A stretch of DNA of 64,000 nt from Gramella sp. AN32 (GTDB taxonomy: Bacteria > Bacteroidota > Bacteroidia > Flavobacteriales > Flavobacteriaceae): contig NZ_QEYO01000005.1 of NCBI RefSeq assembly GCF_023718305.1, positions 124,001 to 188,000 of the forward strand, in the 5' to 3' direction. The position numbers and the translations under genes were made by a program. Under the pieces are notes generated by a model. That model did no database searches and was not told the origin of the DNA. It worked only from the letters and a program-made list of their open reading frames with translations. Shown here piece after piece: positions 47,222 through 54,522 of the stretch (position 1 is its first letter; each line of letters opens with the position of its first letter).

Positions 47222-48490
47222 ATGAAATATTTTTTAGTCTTTCTTTCTACATTTCTATGTGCTACGGGAGTGTATGCTCAAACATTTAGTCTGGATGCAG
47301 ATATTAGACCTCGTTCTGAATATAGGCATGGCTATGGTAATTTGTTTCCAAACGAAGCTAAACCAGCGGCATTTGTAGTTCAGCGGTCCAGGCTGAACCT
47401 TGGATATACCGCCGAAAAATTAGAAATAATGATCAGTTTACAGGATGTAAGGACCTGGGGGGATACCCGGCAACTTTTGGCAGGCGACCCCAATAATTCC
47501 TTTTCCCTTTTTCAGGCCTGGGCAGAATTAAAACTAAGTAATAACTGGGCGACAAAACTCGGCCGACAGGTGATTTCTTATGATGACCAGCGGATATTTG
47601 GAGAGGTAGACTGGACTATGCAGGGACGCTTTCATGACGCCCTGCTTCTAAAATATCAAAAAGACGGTTTCAGGATGGATATTGGGGCTGCATTTAGCCA
47701 GGAAAATCCACGTTTAACAGGATCTGTATATAACATAAACGGTTTCTTCAGTTATAAGACCATGCAGTATGCTTATTTACATAAACAATGGAACCAGTCG
47801 AATATTAGTCTTTTATTTCTGAATAACGGATTTCAGAAATTTTCAGATCCTGCTAATGTGGTGGCAGACGGAGTGTATAACAGGCAGACTACCGGCACCT
47901 ATTTCCAGTTTCCGTTGGGGAATATCAAATTTTCGGGAAGTGCCTATTACCAATTCGGAAAAGCTTCCGAAGATATAGATTTAAGCGCTTATGAATTATC
48001 CCTACAGGGCGATTATAAGATTAAGAATACTCTACTGGGCCTTGGAGCCGAATTGTTAAGTGGAACAGATCAGGCGGGCAGCGATAAAAATCATTCCTTT
48101 TTTCCTTTGTATGGAACCAATCATAAATTCAATGGGTTTATGGATTATTTTTATGTAGGCAGCCATGCGAATAATGTGGGGCTGACCGATCTATTTGGAA
48201 AAGTACTTCTAAAAACCGGCGATAGTTCTTCCCTGCTTTTAAAAGCCCATTATTTTAGTTCGAATGCTGATCTTCTCAATAATGCCGATAAATACCTGGG
48301 AACGGAAATTGATTTGGTGTATGGCAGGCCATTGCTGAAAAACGTAAAACTGAACCTGGGCTATTCCCATATGTTTGCATCTGAAGGTATGAGCCTGATA
48401 AAAAATAATATCACCTCTAAAAATACGAATAACTGGGCCTGGGCGCAAGTGATTATTAATCCCAAGCTTTTTGAAATAAATTTTGAGTGA
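47222..48490 (+). CDS. outer-membrane beta-barrel, alginate-export/porin-like
   Basis: 422 residues, signal peptide ending VYAQ (about 20). The pattern FSLDADIRPRSEYRHGYGNLFP..QRSRLNLGY..LGRQVISYDDQRIFGEVDW is the alginate-export (AlgE-type) barrel family used by many flavobacterial outer-membrane channels. The operator shared with nirB and narK suggests it belongs to the nitrate regulon, perhaps as a nitrate porin. This is inference. Confidence 0.83.
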   Translation: MKYFLVFLSTFLCATGVYAQTFSLDADIRPRSEYRHGYGNLFPNEAKPAAFVVQRSRLNLGYTAEKLEIMISLQDVRTWGDTRQLLAGDPNNSFSLFQAWAELKLSNNWATKLGRQVISYDDQRIFGEVDWTMQGRFHDALLLKYQKDGFRMDIGAAFSQENPRLTGSVYNINGFFSYKTMQYAYLHKQWNQSNISLLFLNNGFQKFSDPANVVADGVYNRQTTGTYFQFPLGNIKFSGSAYYQFGKASEDIDLSAYELSLQGDYKIKNTLLGLGAELLSGTDQAGSDKNHSFFPLYGTNHKFNGFMDYFYVGSHANNVGLTDLFGKVLLKTGDSSSLLLKAHYFSSNADLLNNADKYLGTEIDLVYGRPLLKNVKLNLGYSHMFASEGMSLIKNNITSKNTNNWAWAQVIINPKLFEINFE

Positions 48491-48756: not shown

Positions 48757-48782
48757 AAAAAACTCGCGTTTTTAGACACGAG
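48757..48782 (-). terminator. terminator of the blaR-amidase operon
   Basis: On the minus strand CTCGTG-N8-CGCGAG (one G-U pair) is followed by TTTTTT, 20 bp after the amidase stop. Confidence 0.65.
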
Positions 48783-48802
48783 CCTTATTGGGATTTTTAT
48801 TA

Positions 48803-50230
48803 TTAGTTGGAGAGGGAGCTTATGTGTTTTAGCCCATCCAATATTCTGCTTGCTATTATTTTTTGCTGTATTTTATCCTGAAGCTTTTTGGAGTCCATAT
48901 CATTAGTTAAAAATCCTAATTCTAAAAGGACAGATGGAACTTTAGAATCTTTAAGTATTATAAAATTCGCAGATTTAATATTCCCATTTTTATTATCACT
49001 TTCTAACTGTTTTTGAACTAAAATTTCAATGAATGATTTAGAAACTTTTTCGAAAAGATTATTTGATGAATAATAGCCTTCTACGCCATTCTGTTTGATA
49101 TTATTCGACGCATTACAATGCAAACTAAGTAATAAGTCAGGCTTGATCTTATTTATCAATTTTACCCTGTCATTCAGAGAAATAAATTCATCGGAATCTC
49201 GAGTAGAAATTATTTTAATATCGCTGCTTTCAGATAATTCTAAAAGTTGATTGGTTATTTCCAAATTTATATTCTTTTCCTCTAGATTACCTGCATCTTC
49301 ACCCCCATGACCTGGATCGATTAAGACTACAAAAGATTTATCCTCTTTTATTGGAGTTGATGAACTCAGGACGAAAATACCCGCACTAAGCAAAAACGCA
49401 AAACTAATTTTAAGTGCATTTTTAAAAATTGATGATTTTTGTTGGTGTAACATATTTAAACGGTTTTTGGTTTTTATTAAACTGAACCCACTATAGATCC
49501 CTAGAATATTCTTTTTCGATTGGTTTACTATTAGAGTTGAATAAAAGTCTAGATTTATTCCCGCATTGATAACGAATGAATCAGCCAGAAATTCATGATT
49601 TGTTTCTATTTCCTTTTTAAATAACCATATAAATGGGTTAAACCAGGAAAAACACATGAGTAATTCAACTAAGATGATATCAAAAGAATGATATTGTTGA
49701 GAATGGCAATTTTCATGTAGCAATATGGATTTTAAATCAGTCTCATTTTCTAAATGTTTAGGTCTTAAAAAAATATAATTGAAAAAACTAAAAGGACTGT
49801 TGGTGTCCTCTGTAAGACTTATCTCCTGACCCCTATAGTGAAGCTTTTTACTGCTTTTTATCAAATAAGAAACTTTCTTTAAATTCCATAAAAGCCTCAA
49901 CAGCATTACAAAGGATATTGTAAAATATATAATTGAAATCACTGAAATTTCCTTAGGGGTTTGATATTGAATTATTTCAGAATTTCCGAAAGATACATCG
50001 GGTGAAGTATCTATAAGATTGGCAGTTGTGATGTCTTGATCGATCTTATTGATAGGATTCCAATTTAAACCATAATCTAATTGTAAATAAGGTGAAGCAA
50101 AGCAGAGCAAAAGGGATGTTAATAAATAGATTCTGTTAAGTTCTAAGTTCTTCTCGTTTTTTAATAAAAAAACATAAATAAGATAAAATAAGCTTAGAAG
50201 GATTATATTATAGCATATGAATTCTATCAT
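48803..50230 (-). CDS. M56 (BlaR1-type) metalloprotease fused to an N-acetylmuramoyl-L-alanine amidase
   Basis: 475 residues. N-terminal half: about four membrane helices with a cytosolic zinc site HENCH (about 170-174) and an E/NHEFLADSFV third-ligand segment, typical of BlaR1/MecR1 family M56. C-terminal half (from about 300): AmiC-like amidase_3 with DPGHGGEDAGNLEEKNINL, HCNAS and VLLELGFLTN. BlaR1 normally carries a penicillin-binding sensor here. The following gene is BlaI. The suggestion is a wall-sensing relay with a peptidoglycan hydrolase as sensor; the mechanism is inference. Confidence 0.85.
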   Translation of the reverse strand: MIEFICYNIILLSLFYLIYVFLLKNEKNLELNRIYLLTSLLLCFASPYLQLDYGLNWNPINKIDQDITTANLIDTSPDVSFGNSEIIQYQTPKEISVISIIYFTISFVMLLRLLWNLKKVSYLIKSSKKLHYRGQEISLTEDTNSPFSFFNYIFLRPKHLENETDLKSILLHENCHSQQYHSFDIILVELLMCFSWFNPFIWLFKKEIETNHEFLADSFVINAGINLDFYSTLIVNQSKKNILGIYSGFSLIKTKNRLNMLHQQKSSIFKNALKISFAFLLSAGIFVLSSSTPIKEDKSFVVLIDPGHGGEDAGNLEEKNINLEITNQLLELSESSDIKIISTRDSDEFISLNDRVKLINKIKPDLLLSLHCNASNNIKQNGVEGYYSSNNLFEKVSKSFIEILVQKQLESDNKNGNIKSANFIILKDSKVPSVLLELGFLTNDMDSKKLQDKIQQKIIASRILDGLKHISSLSN

Positions 50231-50231
50231 A

Positions 50232-50609
50232 TTATTCTTTTTTAGAAATTTTATCTTTTAAAATTTTTTCCAATTCCTTTAATTCTTCTAAGCTCAGGTC
50301 TGAATTTTTAGTAAAAAATGATGCAAATTGAGAACTGGAATTATTAAAGAAGTTTGAAACGATGTCTTTAAAATGATTTTTGAAATAATCATTTCTTTTT
50401 AAAATGGGAAAATAATTTTTATCCCTGCCACTTTTCTCAAAACCAATATAATTTTTCTTTACCATCCTACTGATGAGTGTTGAGATAGTTGTATAAGCTG
50501 GTTTGGGTTCGGGAAACTCTTCGACTATATCTTTTAAAAAACCTCTTTCAATCTTCCAGAGGTATTTCATGATTTCAAGTTCAGTCTTATTTAATTGCTT
50601 TATATCCAC
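50232..50609 (-). CDS. BlaI/MecI-family repressor
   Basis: 125 residues, GTG start. Winged helix: LNKTELEIMKYLWKIERGFLKDIVE..AYTTISTLISRMVKK..IGFEKSGRDKNYF. C-terminal dimerisation region SLEELKELEKILKDKISKKE. One base before the M56-amidase gene. A palindromic operator overlaps its promoter, as in other BlaI systems. Confidence 0.93.
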   Translation of the reverse strand: MDIKQLNKTELEIMKYLWKIERGFLKDIVEEFPEPKPAYTTISTLISRMVKKNYIGFEKSGRDKNYFPILKRNDYFKNHFKDIVSNFFNNSSSQFASFFTKNSDLSLEELKELEKILKDKISKKE

Positions 50610-50623
50610 AAAAGTAGTTTTAA

Positions 50624-50639
50624 TACTACAAATGTAGTA
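50624..50639 (-). promoter_or_regulatory. BlaI operator overlapping the -7 box
   Basis: TACTACA-AA-TGTAGTA, a perfect 7-2-7 palindrome with the TACA/TGTA core of BlaI/MecI sites. The minus-strand -7 box TACATTTG (50629-50636) lies inside it. Confidence 0.75.
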
Positions 50640-53031: not shown

Positions 53032-54522
53032 ATGCAGAAACAAACTTTCTTCGCTTATCTAATTTTCTTCTTAGGTTTTACTTTCCAATCAAGTGCTCAG
53101 GATACCCATCAAGCTCAAATCGATACGTTGTTGGACATTTGCTATGAGCGTGGAATATTTAATGGCAATGCTTTGGTGATTAAAGATGATAAAATCATTT
53201 ATAGTGCTGAAAAAGGTTTTACAGATGCAAGCAAAACTAAACAACTTGATAAAAATTCGATTTTTGATATTGGCTCCATTTCAAAGGAGTTCAATGCCGT
53301 AGCGATTATGATGCTCGAAGAAAAAGGATTGCTAAATCTAGACGATGAAATTTCGAAATATCAATTAGGTCTTCCCGAATGGTCGCATAAAATTACTATC
53401 AAAAATCTGTTGCAATATAGTAGTGGATTGCCTTTGGTTGATTGGGAAAATGTACATGGCGACAATGACCTTTATAATAATTTAAAATCCCTCAATGCAT
53501 TGGAGTTTGAACCTGGTACGGGTTATTTGTATAGCAATAACAACGTATTTCTTCAAAGACGAATCGTAGAAAAAATAACTGGTAAAACTTTCAGCGAATT
53601 TATTAAATTGAACCTTCTACAACCTATGGGGATGCATAATTCGGTGATTGACCACCAATACGAAAATCCAAATTTCGTAAGAGGGTTCAATAGCGACAAC
53701 ATTAATGACGAGAAGTTGGAATTAAAAATGTCTGGCTGGGTATGCCCAAACATTAGTGATTTGGCTAAGTGGGCGAAGCAATTGTTGTCCTACAACCTAA
53801 TTTCACGAAAATCTCTACATACTCTTTTTGAAACCTACTCAAATGATAGTCAGTCCCCGCTGGGTAACGGTAAATTTGTTAATGGGGAATTGGTTACGTA
53901 TGAACATCATGGCTCATCCCTAAACTATGAATCCATGGTTCATTTCGATCTCCAGGAAAAGTTATTGATCATCCTGATGACTAATAGCAAAAGTTTGAAA
54001 ATTAGTGAAATAAATGAAGCTATAAGGCATATTTTAAAAGATGAAGGTTACGAAATACCTCAAAAGTCTGTTTACCTGACTATTCGGGAAAAGACTTATG
54101 ATGATGTGGACGAAGGTGTAGCCTACTATAAAAGGTTAAAGGATTCCAGTTTGGATACTTATAATTTTTCTGATCAATGGGAGTTGGCCCGCTTGTCTTA
54201 CAAATTGCTCGAAAAAAATCAAAATGAGGAGGCAATTAAAATATTGGAACTCCTGATTTCAGAACTACCTATTAAATCTGAAGAAACACTTGAATTTATA
54301 GGATCGAGGATTTTAGAGGAAAACCAGGTTGATAAATCCATAAAGGTCTATGAATTAATGGTGGCGGAATTTCCTTCCGGTAAGTCGTATAGTGGTTTGG
54401 GTGACGCTTATTTTAAAAAGGAGCAAATTGATCTCGCTTTGCGCAATTATAAAAAATCTTTGCAAATTGAACCTGAAAATGAAAATTCAAAAAAAATGAT
54501 TTTGGCGATTGAAAAGTTATGA
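53032..54522 (+). CDS. secreted serine hydrolase, beta-lactamase fold, with TPR tail
   Basis: 496 residues, signal peptide ending SSAQ (about 22). Class C-type motifs: SxxK as SISK (about residue 85), YSN (about 168), and HHGSS (KTG equivalent). The C-terminal 100 residues look like TPR helices (SGLGDAYFKKEQIDLALRNYKKSLQIEPENEN). Such proteins are peptidase or esterase-like in the periplasm; no evidence for antibiotic hydrolysis. The only plus-strand gene in this stretch. Confidence 0.88.
   Translation: MQKQTFFAYLIFFLGFTFQSSAQDTHQAQIDTLLDICYERGIFNGNALVIKDDKIIYSAEKGFTDASKTKQLDKNSIFDIGSISKEFNAVAIMMLEEKGLLNLDDEISKYQLGLPEWSHKITIKNLLQYSSGLPLVDWENVHGDNDLYNNLKSLNALEFEPGTGYLYSNNNVFLQRRIVEKITGKTFSEFIKLNLLQPMGMHNSVIDHQYENPNFVRGFNSDNINDEKLELKMSGWVCPNISDLAKWAKQLLSYNLISRKSLHTLFETYSNDSQSPLGNGKFVNGELVTYEHHGSSLNYESMVHFDLQEKLLIILMTNSKSLKISEINEAIRHILKDEGYEIPQKSVYLTIREKTYDDVDEGVAYYKRLKDSSLDTYNFSDQWELARLSYKLLEKNQNEEAIKILELLISELPIKSEETLEFIGSRILEENQVDKSIKVYELMVAEFPSGKSYSGLGDAYFKKEQIDLALRNYKKSLQIEPENENSKKMILAIEKL

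Follow-up and report, generated by a model that had tools for sequence, protein, structure and literature searches.

The DNA analysed here, referred to as the window, is a 64,000-nucleotide stretch of the genome of Gramella sp. AN32 (assembly GCF_023718305.1, contig NZ_QEYO01000005.1, positions 124,001-188,000, forward strand). Its minus strand carries a gene for a BlaI/MecI-type repressor and, one base away, a gene encoding a membrane M56 protease joined to an amidase. The features of this locus are as follows:

50606-50638, minus strand: tandem BlaI-type operator (dyad 1, 50625-50638; dyad 2, 50606-50618)
50232-50609, minus strand: gene for a BlaI/MecI-type repressor of 125 amino acids, with a GTG start and a Penicillinase_R match
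48803-50230, minus strand: gene for the M56 protease-Amidase_3 fusion, 475 amino acids in one uninterrupted frame
48803-49333, minus strand: part of the fusion gene coding for the Amidase_3 domain (residues ~300-475), predicted to be exported
48759-48786, minus strand: terminator-like hairpin 3' of the fusion gene (two hairpins in the region against a shuffle mean of 1.0, weak by itself)

The first ~290 residues of the fusion protein form its M56 part and the last ~175 its Amidase_3 part. Pfam matches Peptidase_M56 (PF05569) at residues 63-224 (8e-12, 45.4 bits against a cut-off of 31) and Amidase_3 at residues 302-468 (8.1e-42, 143.6 bits against a cut-off of 27). Transmembrane (TM) helices lie at about residues 2-23, 29-48, 97-126 and 268-290. 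The protease site comprises an HExxH motif at 172-176 and the residues H172, E173, H176, E213 (the equivalent of the third ligand) and D217; F249 and R257 resemble residues associated with BlaR1 autocleavage. The amidase domain, at ~300-472, contains H308, E318, H371 and E437, which we take from the Amidase_3 family to be its active-site residues. An initial sequence-only reading had proposed that an M56 zinc site and membrane helices are joined here to an amidase in place of a penicillin-binding domain, and the presence of both Pfam domains in one 475-residue frame bears this out. A PADLOC search for defence systems had no hit to the fusion, and its hits to BlaI were weak (E 0.005).

The next downstream gene, at 47222-48490, lies on the opposite strand. 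Because this gene and the terminator-like hairpin lie 3' of the fusion gene, blaI and the fusion gene look like a two-gene unit. The gene 3' of the fusion is likewise on the opposite strand in three relatives (L005-L007); in two others (L009 and L013), same-strand genes lie within ~140 bases 3' of the fusion, which counts against a self-contained circuit.

A survey for further M56-amidase fusions, as the sequence-only reading had suggested, yielded 21 distinct examples in Bacteroidota, including that of the window; two pairs among them are near-identical. Ten (L005-L014) are among the 80 loci that were kept of 242 relatives in named GTDB genomes, and belong to Zunongwangia, a Flavobacteriales MAG, Chitinophagaceae and other Bacteroidota. 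The fusion is present in at least five of 299 genomes of the window's family (G000, G157, G262, G040 and G117) and in at least eight of 395 genomes of the phylum (G157, G000, G440, G386, G418, G675, G428 and G375), both counts being lower bounds drawn from the 30 top-ranked loci of each search and a few scored candidates per genome. The architecture is rare and patchy. The amidase follows the fourth TM helix in every one of the 21 fusions, and all eleven residues named above are invariant in all of them. In all 15 fusions of a first set the repressor gene lies upstream on the same strand, at a distance of no more than 111 bases. It is upstream in five of six fusions of a second set; the exception, L125, begins 101 bases from the start of its locus, at a contig end. 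We considered whether a sequencing, frame or assembly error had fused two genes, a concern raised at the outset. Nothing was found in support of such an artefact, and it is effectively ruled out by the recurrence of the same domain order in 21 fusions from many assemblies and by the single open frame.

The history of the fusion was addressed with quick trees built without bootstrap, which have long branches and include 45 non-amidase rows drawn at random together with paralogues from the window's own genome. The M56 tree contains a clade of Flavobacteriaceae-type fusions (8 rows, SH-aLRT 98) and a second fusion clade that includes some M56 proteins without an amidase; the M56-BlaI pair there can therefore do without it. 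A single strict clade of all 21 fusions was rejected (p-AU 1.9e-6). The union of both fusion clades, inner non-amidase rows included, was not rejected (p-AU 0.49), so a single old fusion with later losses of the amidase is possible. The amidase-domain tree was largely without resolution.

BlaR1/BlaI-type switches serve penicillin detection in Staphylococcus, and the locus described here resembles the BlaR1/BlaI and MecR1/MecI systems of Staphylococcus and Bacillus in its gene pair, repressor family and operator palindrome. The likeness extends to a membrane M56 protease with HExxH, the third Glu and equivalents of Asp246, Phe284 and Arg294, and to a domain past the fourth TM helix that, for the fusion, is predicted to be on the outer side. 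The C-terminus of the fusion, however, is a zinc amidase with an intact active site rather than a penicillin-binding domain, and the NCBIfam model blaR1_generic gave 26.2 of the 400 bits required. A profile of the M56 part matched the S. aureus BlaR1 structure 8exp at 3.8e-13, and also its F284A mutant; a third PDB match, 8qag at 4.5e-4, has no single stretch that passes alone. The profile alignment with 8exp spans the first to the fourth TM helix and places H172/E173/H176, E213 and D217 opposite BlaR1 H201/E202/H205, E242 and D246, with F249 opposite F284 and R257 opposite R294. BlaR1 cleaves itself between Ser283 and Phe284, and its Arg294 reaches across the domain-swapped dimer (excerpts of PMC9834060).

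An AlphaFold model of the fusion has a mean pLDDT of 86.5 and a pTM of 0.69. Its top Foldseek matches are amidases (CwlV 1jwq, 4rn7 and AmiC2 5emi), and it also matches BlaR1, both as 8exq (5e-7) and, for the TM and protease part, as 8exr with a target TM-score of 0.64. Because the rmsd to 8exq across the whole chain is 16.5, the modelled arrangement of the domains differs from that of BlaR1. In 15 of 15 fusions the loop between TM2 and TM3 carries a net negative charge, and both the short loop joining TM1 to TM2 and the one that precedes TM4 carry a net positive charge; residues 119-180 vary in net charge across the 15 (-4 to +6). A 19-residue hydropathy scan gave TM2 a score of 1.30 in the window protein and 1.31 in L008, against values between 1.47 and 2.23 for the remaining 13 fusions, and helix 180-206, part of the protease in the model, scores above TM2 of the window protein. 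The TM2 assignment in this protein thus rests on the model and on the BlaR1 alignment. The side of the membrane on which the amidase lies had been singled out as a point to check, a cytosolic position being the one that would speak against a sensor. We predict with high confidence that the domain is periplasmic, because a BlaR1-like N-out/C-out topology (excerpts of PMC9834060) would put the C-terminus outside. The same prediction follows from the Plug and/or TonB_C domains found after the amidase in four of five scanned fusions (L122, L124, L011 and L014, with TonB_C of L011 under cut-off), since these belong on the periplasmic side. The L011 protein (L011:3968-7333) is 1121 residues long, with matches to Plug, a TonB_C-like domain and the third domain of GldM beyond its amidase.

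The sequence-only reading had called the domain an AmiC-like amidase. That it is an amidase is supported by the Amidase_3 match, but the likeness to AmiC did not hold: the NCBIfam AmiC model NF038267 gave 72.9 of 700 bits, AmiA 76.3 of 400 and AmiB 56.5 of 532, all under cut-off, and the best model, CwlD, reached 95.7 of 221.55 bits, also under cut-off. The domain is short: it measures 173-199 residues across the 21 fusions, whereas the free amidases L150 and L181-L183 have 226-227. We presume these free amidases from their length alone to be of the AmiA/B/C type, with the autoinhibitory-helix insert likewise judged by length. Other free amidases are also short (for example L105, L110 and L151-L154), and Amidase_3 occurs at five more places in the window's own genome. 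By these comparisons the amidase is nearer to the CwlD/CwlV type than to AmiC. Because its four active-site residues are kept throughout the fusions, it is very likely active. Its best solved relatives are the short Amidase_3 enzymes CwlV, CwlD with GerS, LytH with its membrane partner ActH, and AmiC2, which have the same fold and active site. CwlV and AmiC2 have no autoinhibitory helix and work by themselves, but LytH and the CwlD of C. difficile require partners (excerpts of PMC8496864). All four are separate proteins, whereas here the amidase is joined to a presumed repressor-cutting protease.

The repressor of the window matches Penicillinase_R (PF03965) at 2.4e-27 (96 bits against a cut-off of 22.6) and the MecI structure 1okr at 7.1e-9. 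Its residues F98-F99 align with Asn101-Phe102 in both MecI and S. aureus BlaI, the latter being cut between these two residues (excerpts of PMC9834060). This alignment counts for cutting of BlaI by the M56 protease; the F99 column, with Phe in only 11 of 23 aligned BlaI sequences (Met in 11, Leu in one), counts against it, and the F98 column holds Phe in 20, Tyr in two and Cys in one. A cleavage site near F98-F99 is plausible from the alignment, in a register that is not strictly conserved. By analogy with BlaR1, the M56 protease is likely to cut BlaI.

Amidase_3 enzymes free stem peptides from the wall, and a different route to induction can be drawn from this activity. The amidase would free stem peptides that, once imported and trimmed, bind BlaI, and the M56 protease would trim the peptide rather than BlaI. 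The dipeptide model for Bacillus licheniformis offers a precedent: gamma-D-Glu-mDAP releases BlaI from its operator, and BlaR is proposed to make this dipeptide from a tripeptide whose precursor is supplied by wall hydrolases (excerpts of PMC3305447). We nevertheless regard this route as highly improbable, BlaR1 having been reported to cut BlaI directly, with no further component (excerpts of PMC9834060), and direct cleavage of BlaI is retained in what follows.

Adjacent to the fusion gene the sequence-only reading had also placed BlaI and its operator, and both are there and are conserved in relatives. The palindrome TACTACAAATGTAGTA lies at 50624-50639, upstream of blaI, where the minus strand reads TACTACATTTGTAGTA. 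Dyad 1 includes a -7-like promoter box, TACATTTG, that fits the flavobacterial consensus TAnnTTTG (excerpt of PMC9723704), and dyad 2, less perfect and 20 bases beyond dyad 1, overlaps the GTG start of blaI. At up to three mismatches TACTACAAATGTAGTA occurs at one place only in the 64 kb window, on both strands (two matches; shuffled sequence has a mean of 0.45, and 8 of 100 shuffles reach two). Taken by itself, the palindrome appears mildly beyond chance within the window; it becomes persuasive because relatives keep it upstream of blaI. Seven of eight Flavobacteriaceae-type fusions have an exact copy of the 14-mer dyad ahead of blaI and the eighth, L094, a copy with one mismatch; L008-L014 have two AACTA-TAGTT dyads instead (three in L008). 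At 53032-54522 on the plus strand, 2.4 kb past the blaI start, the window contains a serine hydrolase gene of the PF00144 (beta-lactamase) family with a C-terminal TPR; a window search at up to three mismatches found no operator copy near it.

Target genes of BlaI had been proposed as the object of an operator search, and this search identified one. The tandem pattern, at up to three mismatches, occurs at a single place in each of G000, G157, G040, G262 and G117, and in all five genomes this place is upstream of blaI and the fusion gene; its reversed control gave none or one per genome. In the window's own genome, TACTACAAATGTAGTA at up to two mismatches matched five times, the operon accounting for two of these because it is read on both strands, whereas the reversed control matched 16 times; the 14-mer with one mismatch matched twice, once at the operon, and its control four times. 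These pattern searches, in the own genome and for the tandem pattern in the five genomes, found no second conserved target and no lactamase or PBP gene as a target of BlaI. One extra exact 14-mer occurs in G040 (L166), between open frames and beside an integrase-like one.

That genome, G000, contains three further blaI-M56 pairs (L156, L157 and L158), each with paired upstream dyads. The best dyads of L157 and L156, at three and four mismatches from the window 14-mer, are clearly different. The dyad upstream of L158, which was seen by inspecting the upstream regions of the three paralogous blaI genes and was not listed by the pattern searches, has the same CTACATTTGTAG core as that of the window, with two mismatches of 14; the L158 dyads also have the CTACNTTTGTAG core in common with the window's, at a wider spacing. 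This closeness counts against a single target, and because of it the window BlaI and the L158 circuit may cross-talk, L158 being a possible second target. One could envisage the amidase as a sensor whose BlaI governs a broader set of wall-repair genes, in keeping with the L158 operon and with the control of other genes by S. aureus BlaR1/BlaI (excerpts of PMC9834060). We consider such a regulon improbable: elsewhere in the own genome no operators were found above control counts, and the extra 14-mer of G040 was not found in the sister genome G262. Apart from the possible L158 cross-talk, a wider BlaI regulon was set aside on these counts, and the pattern searches make it fairly probable that the own operon is the main target of BlaI.

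The reading that we put forward, tentatively and at a little short of an even chance, is a largely autogenous BlaI-M56 circuit whose transducer, the M56-amidase, is at the same time its output. BlaI would bind the tandem operator across its own promoter, keeping expression of blaI and the M56-amidase gene low. The few M56-amidase molecules would span the inner membrane, their protease facing the cytosol and their amidase lying in the periplasm. Accessible peptidoglycan, for instance uncrosslinked or damaged, would engage the amidase and shift this domain together with the outer loop between TM2 and TM3. By analogy with transmembrane signalling in BlaR1, this shift would activate the M56 protease, and BlaI would be cut near its C-terminal Phe pair. 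Derepression of the operon would then supply more membrane-tethered amidase, and as the substrate is trimmed away the signal would drop.

We lean slightly towards the amidase domain as the input of this circuit, a role proposed here only. It is weakened by the outer loop: in BlaR1 the loop EL1 plugs the sensor (excerpts of PMC9834060), and in the fusion the corresponding loop, residues 53-90, is disordered in the model (pLDDT <50) and has no invariant column across the fusions. The intact active site in all 21 fusions, and pattern searches in which no second conserved target was found, make it probable that the amidase is an output as well, or an output alone. Because the own operon is the one conserved target found, we take the amidase to be the main output at the least. 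The amidase might be an effector and nothing else. The M56 part would then sense the membrane, the outer loop or a partner protein, the fusion would set the amount of amidase by this signal, and the amidase would be trimmed or freed through autocleavage or by signal peptidase. Such an arrangement is consistent with the intact active sites, with an operator at the own operon, with the independent activity of CwlV and AmiC2 in the absence of a regulatory helix (excerpts of PMC8496864) and with the cutting of BlaR1 by signal peptidase ahead of its sensor domain (excerpts of PMC9834060). In BlaR1, the one solved relative, however, the receptor is the domain past the fourth TM helix (excerpts of PMC9834060), and we judge a pure effector rather unlikely.

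Other M56-BlaI pairs of Bacteroidota have the same membrane-protease part and a different C-terminal domain. A sample of 90 M56 genes, filtered, with amidase carriers removed beforehand and biased towards relatives of the window protein, has blaI within 60 bases in 81 cases. Among the 88 whose C-termini were scanned (L117 and L118 being excluded for size), 33 have TonB_C, 31 Plug and five Peptidase_M23, with three for each of two CarboxypepD_reg models and one with ankyrin repeats (E up to 0.01). The five M56-M23 fusions (L018, L019, L024, L049 and L050) and a sixth from outside the 88 (L119) all retain HxxxD and HxH, which we take to be the motifs of M23 (LytM-type) endopeptidases, and all have blaI adjacent; a single strict clade of the M23 fusions was rejected (p-AU 0.0026). 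Because M23 endopeptidases are also found at this position, the C-terminus of M56 appears to be a swappable slot, and by their domain matches two unrelated zinc wall hydrolases occupy the place of the BlaR1 penicillin-binding domain. In four of the five loci, similar exported-looking proteins of ~155 amino acids are encoded 3' of the M56-M23 gene on the same strand (L018:5528-5995; L019:5477-5941; L049:5368-5961, 197 amino acids; L050:5280-5750), and are possibly co-regulated partners of M56-M23. One record titled Saccharospirillaceae (L046) has a Bacteroidota-like M56 gene and is possibly a wrongly binned contig.

Among the literature matches listed, with subscription papers and preprints outside their scope, no title or opening of an abstract concerned an M56-amidase or M56-M23 fusion, and the excerpts of PMC3650047 do not treat an M56-amidase fusion. 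The parts are known; the novelty would lie in the way they are joined, with both active sites invariant and an operator at the own operon. These fusions could represent a class of closed-loop regulators of the wall in Bacteroidota. An antirepressor of the BlaR1 type would be joined to a functional hydrolase, amidase or M23, whose substrate is the inducer and which is itself the main product; we offer this generalization as a possibility, and a doubtful one. To our knowledge, the signals of Bacteroidota M56-BlaI pairs are mostly unknown, and such pairs appear widespread in the phylum, as judged from sampled M56 genes chosen for their similarity to the window protein. Fusion to an enzyme of known substrate kind provides a concrete candidate signal, and bears on the old question of whether BlaI-type repressors answer peptidoglycan breakdown besides beta-lactams. 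A single protein may combine sensing of the wall with action on it, which would give the BlaR1/BlaI switch a new twist. If the closed-loop reading is true, wall-cutting capacity would be metered by the amount of cuttable wall that the enzyme meets.
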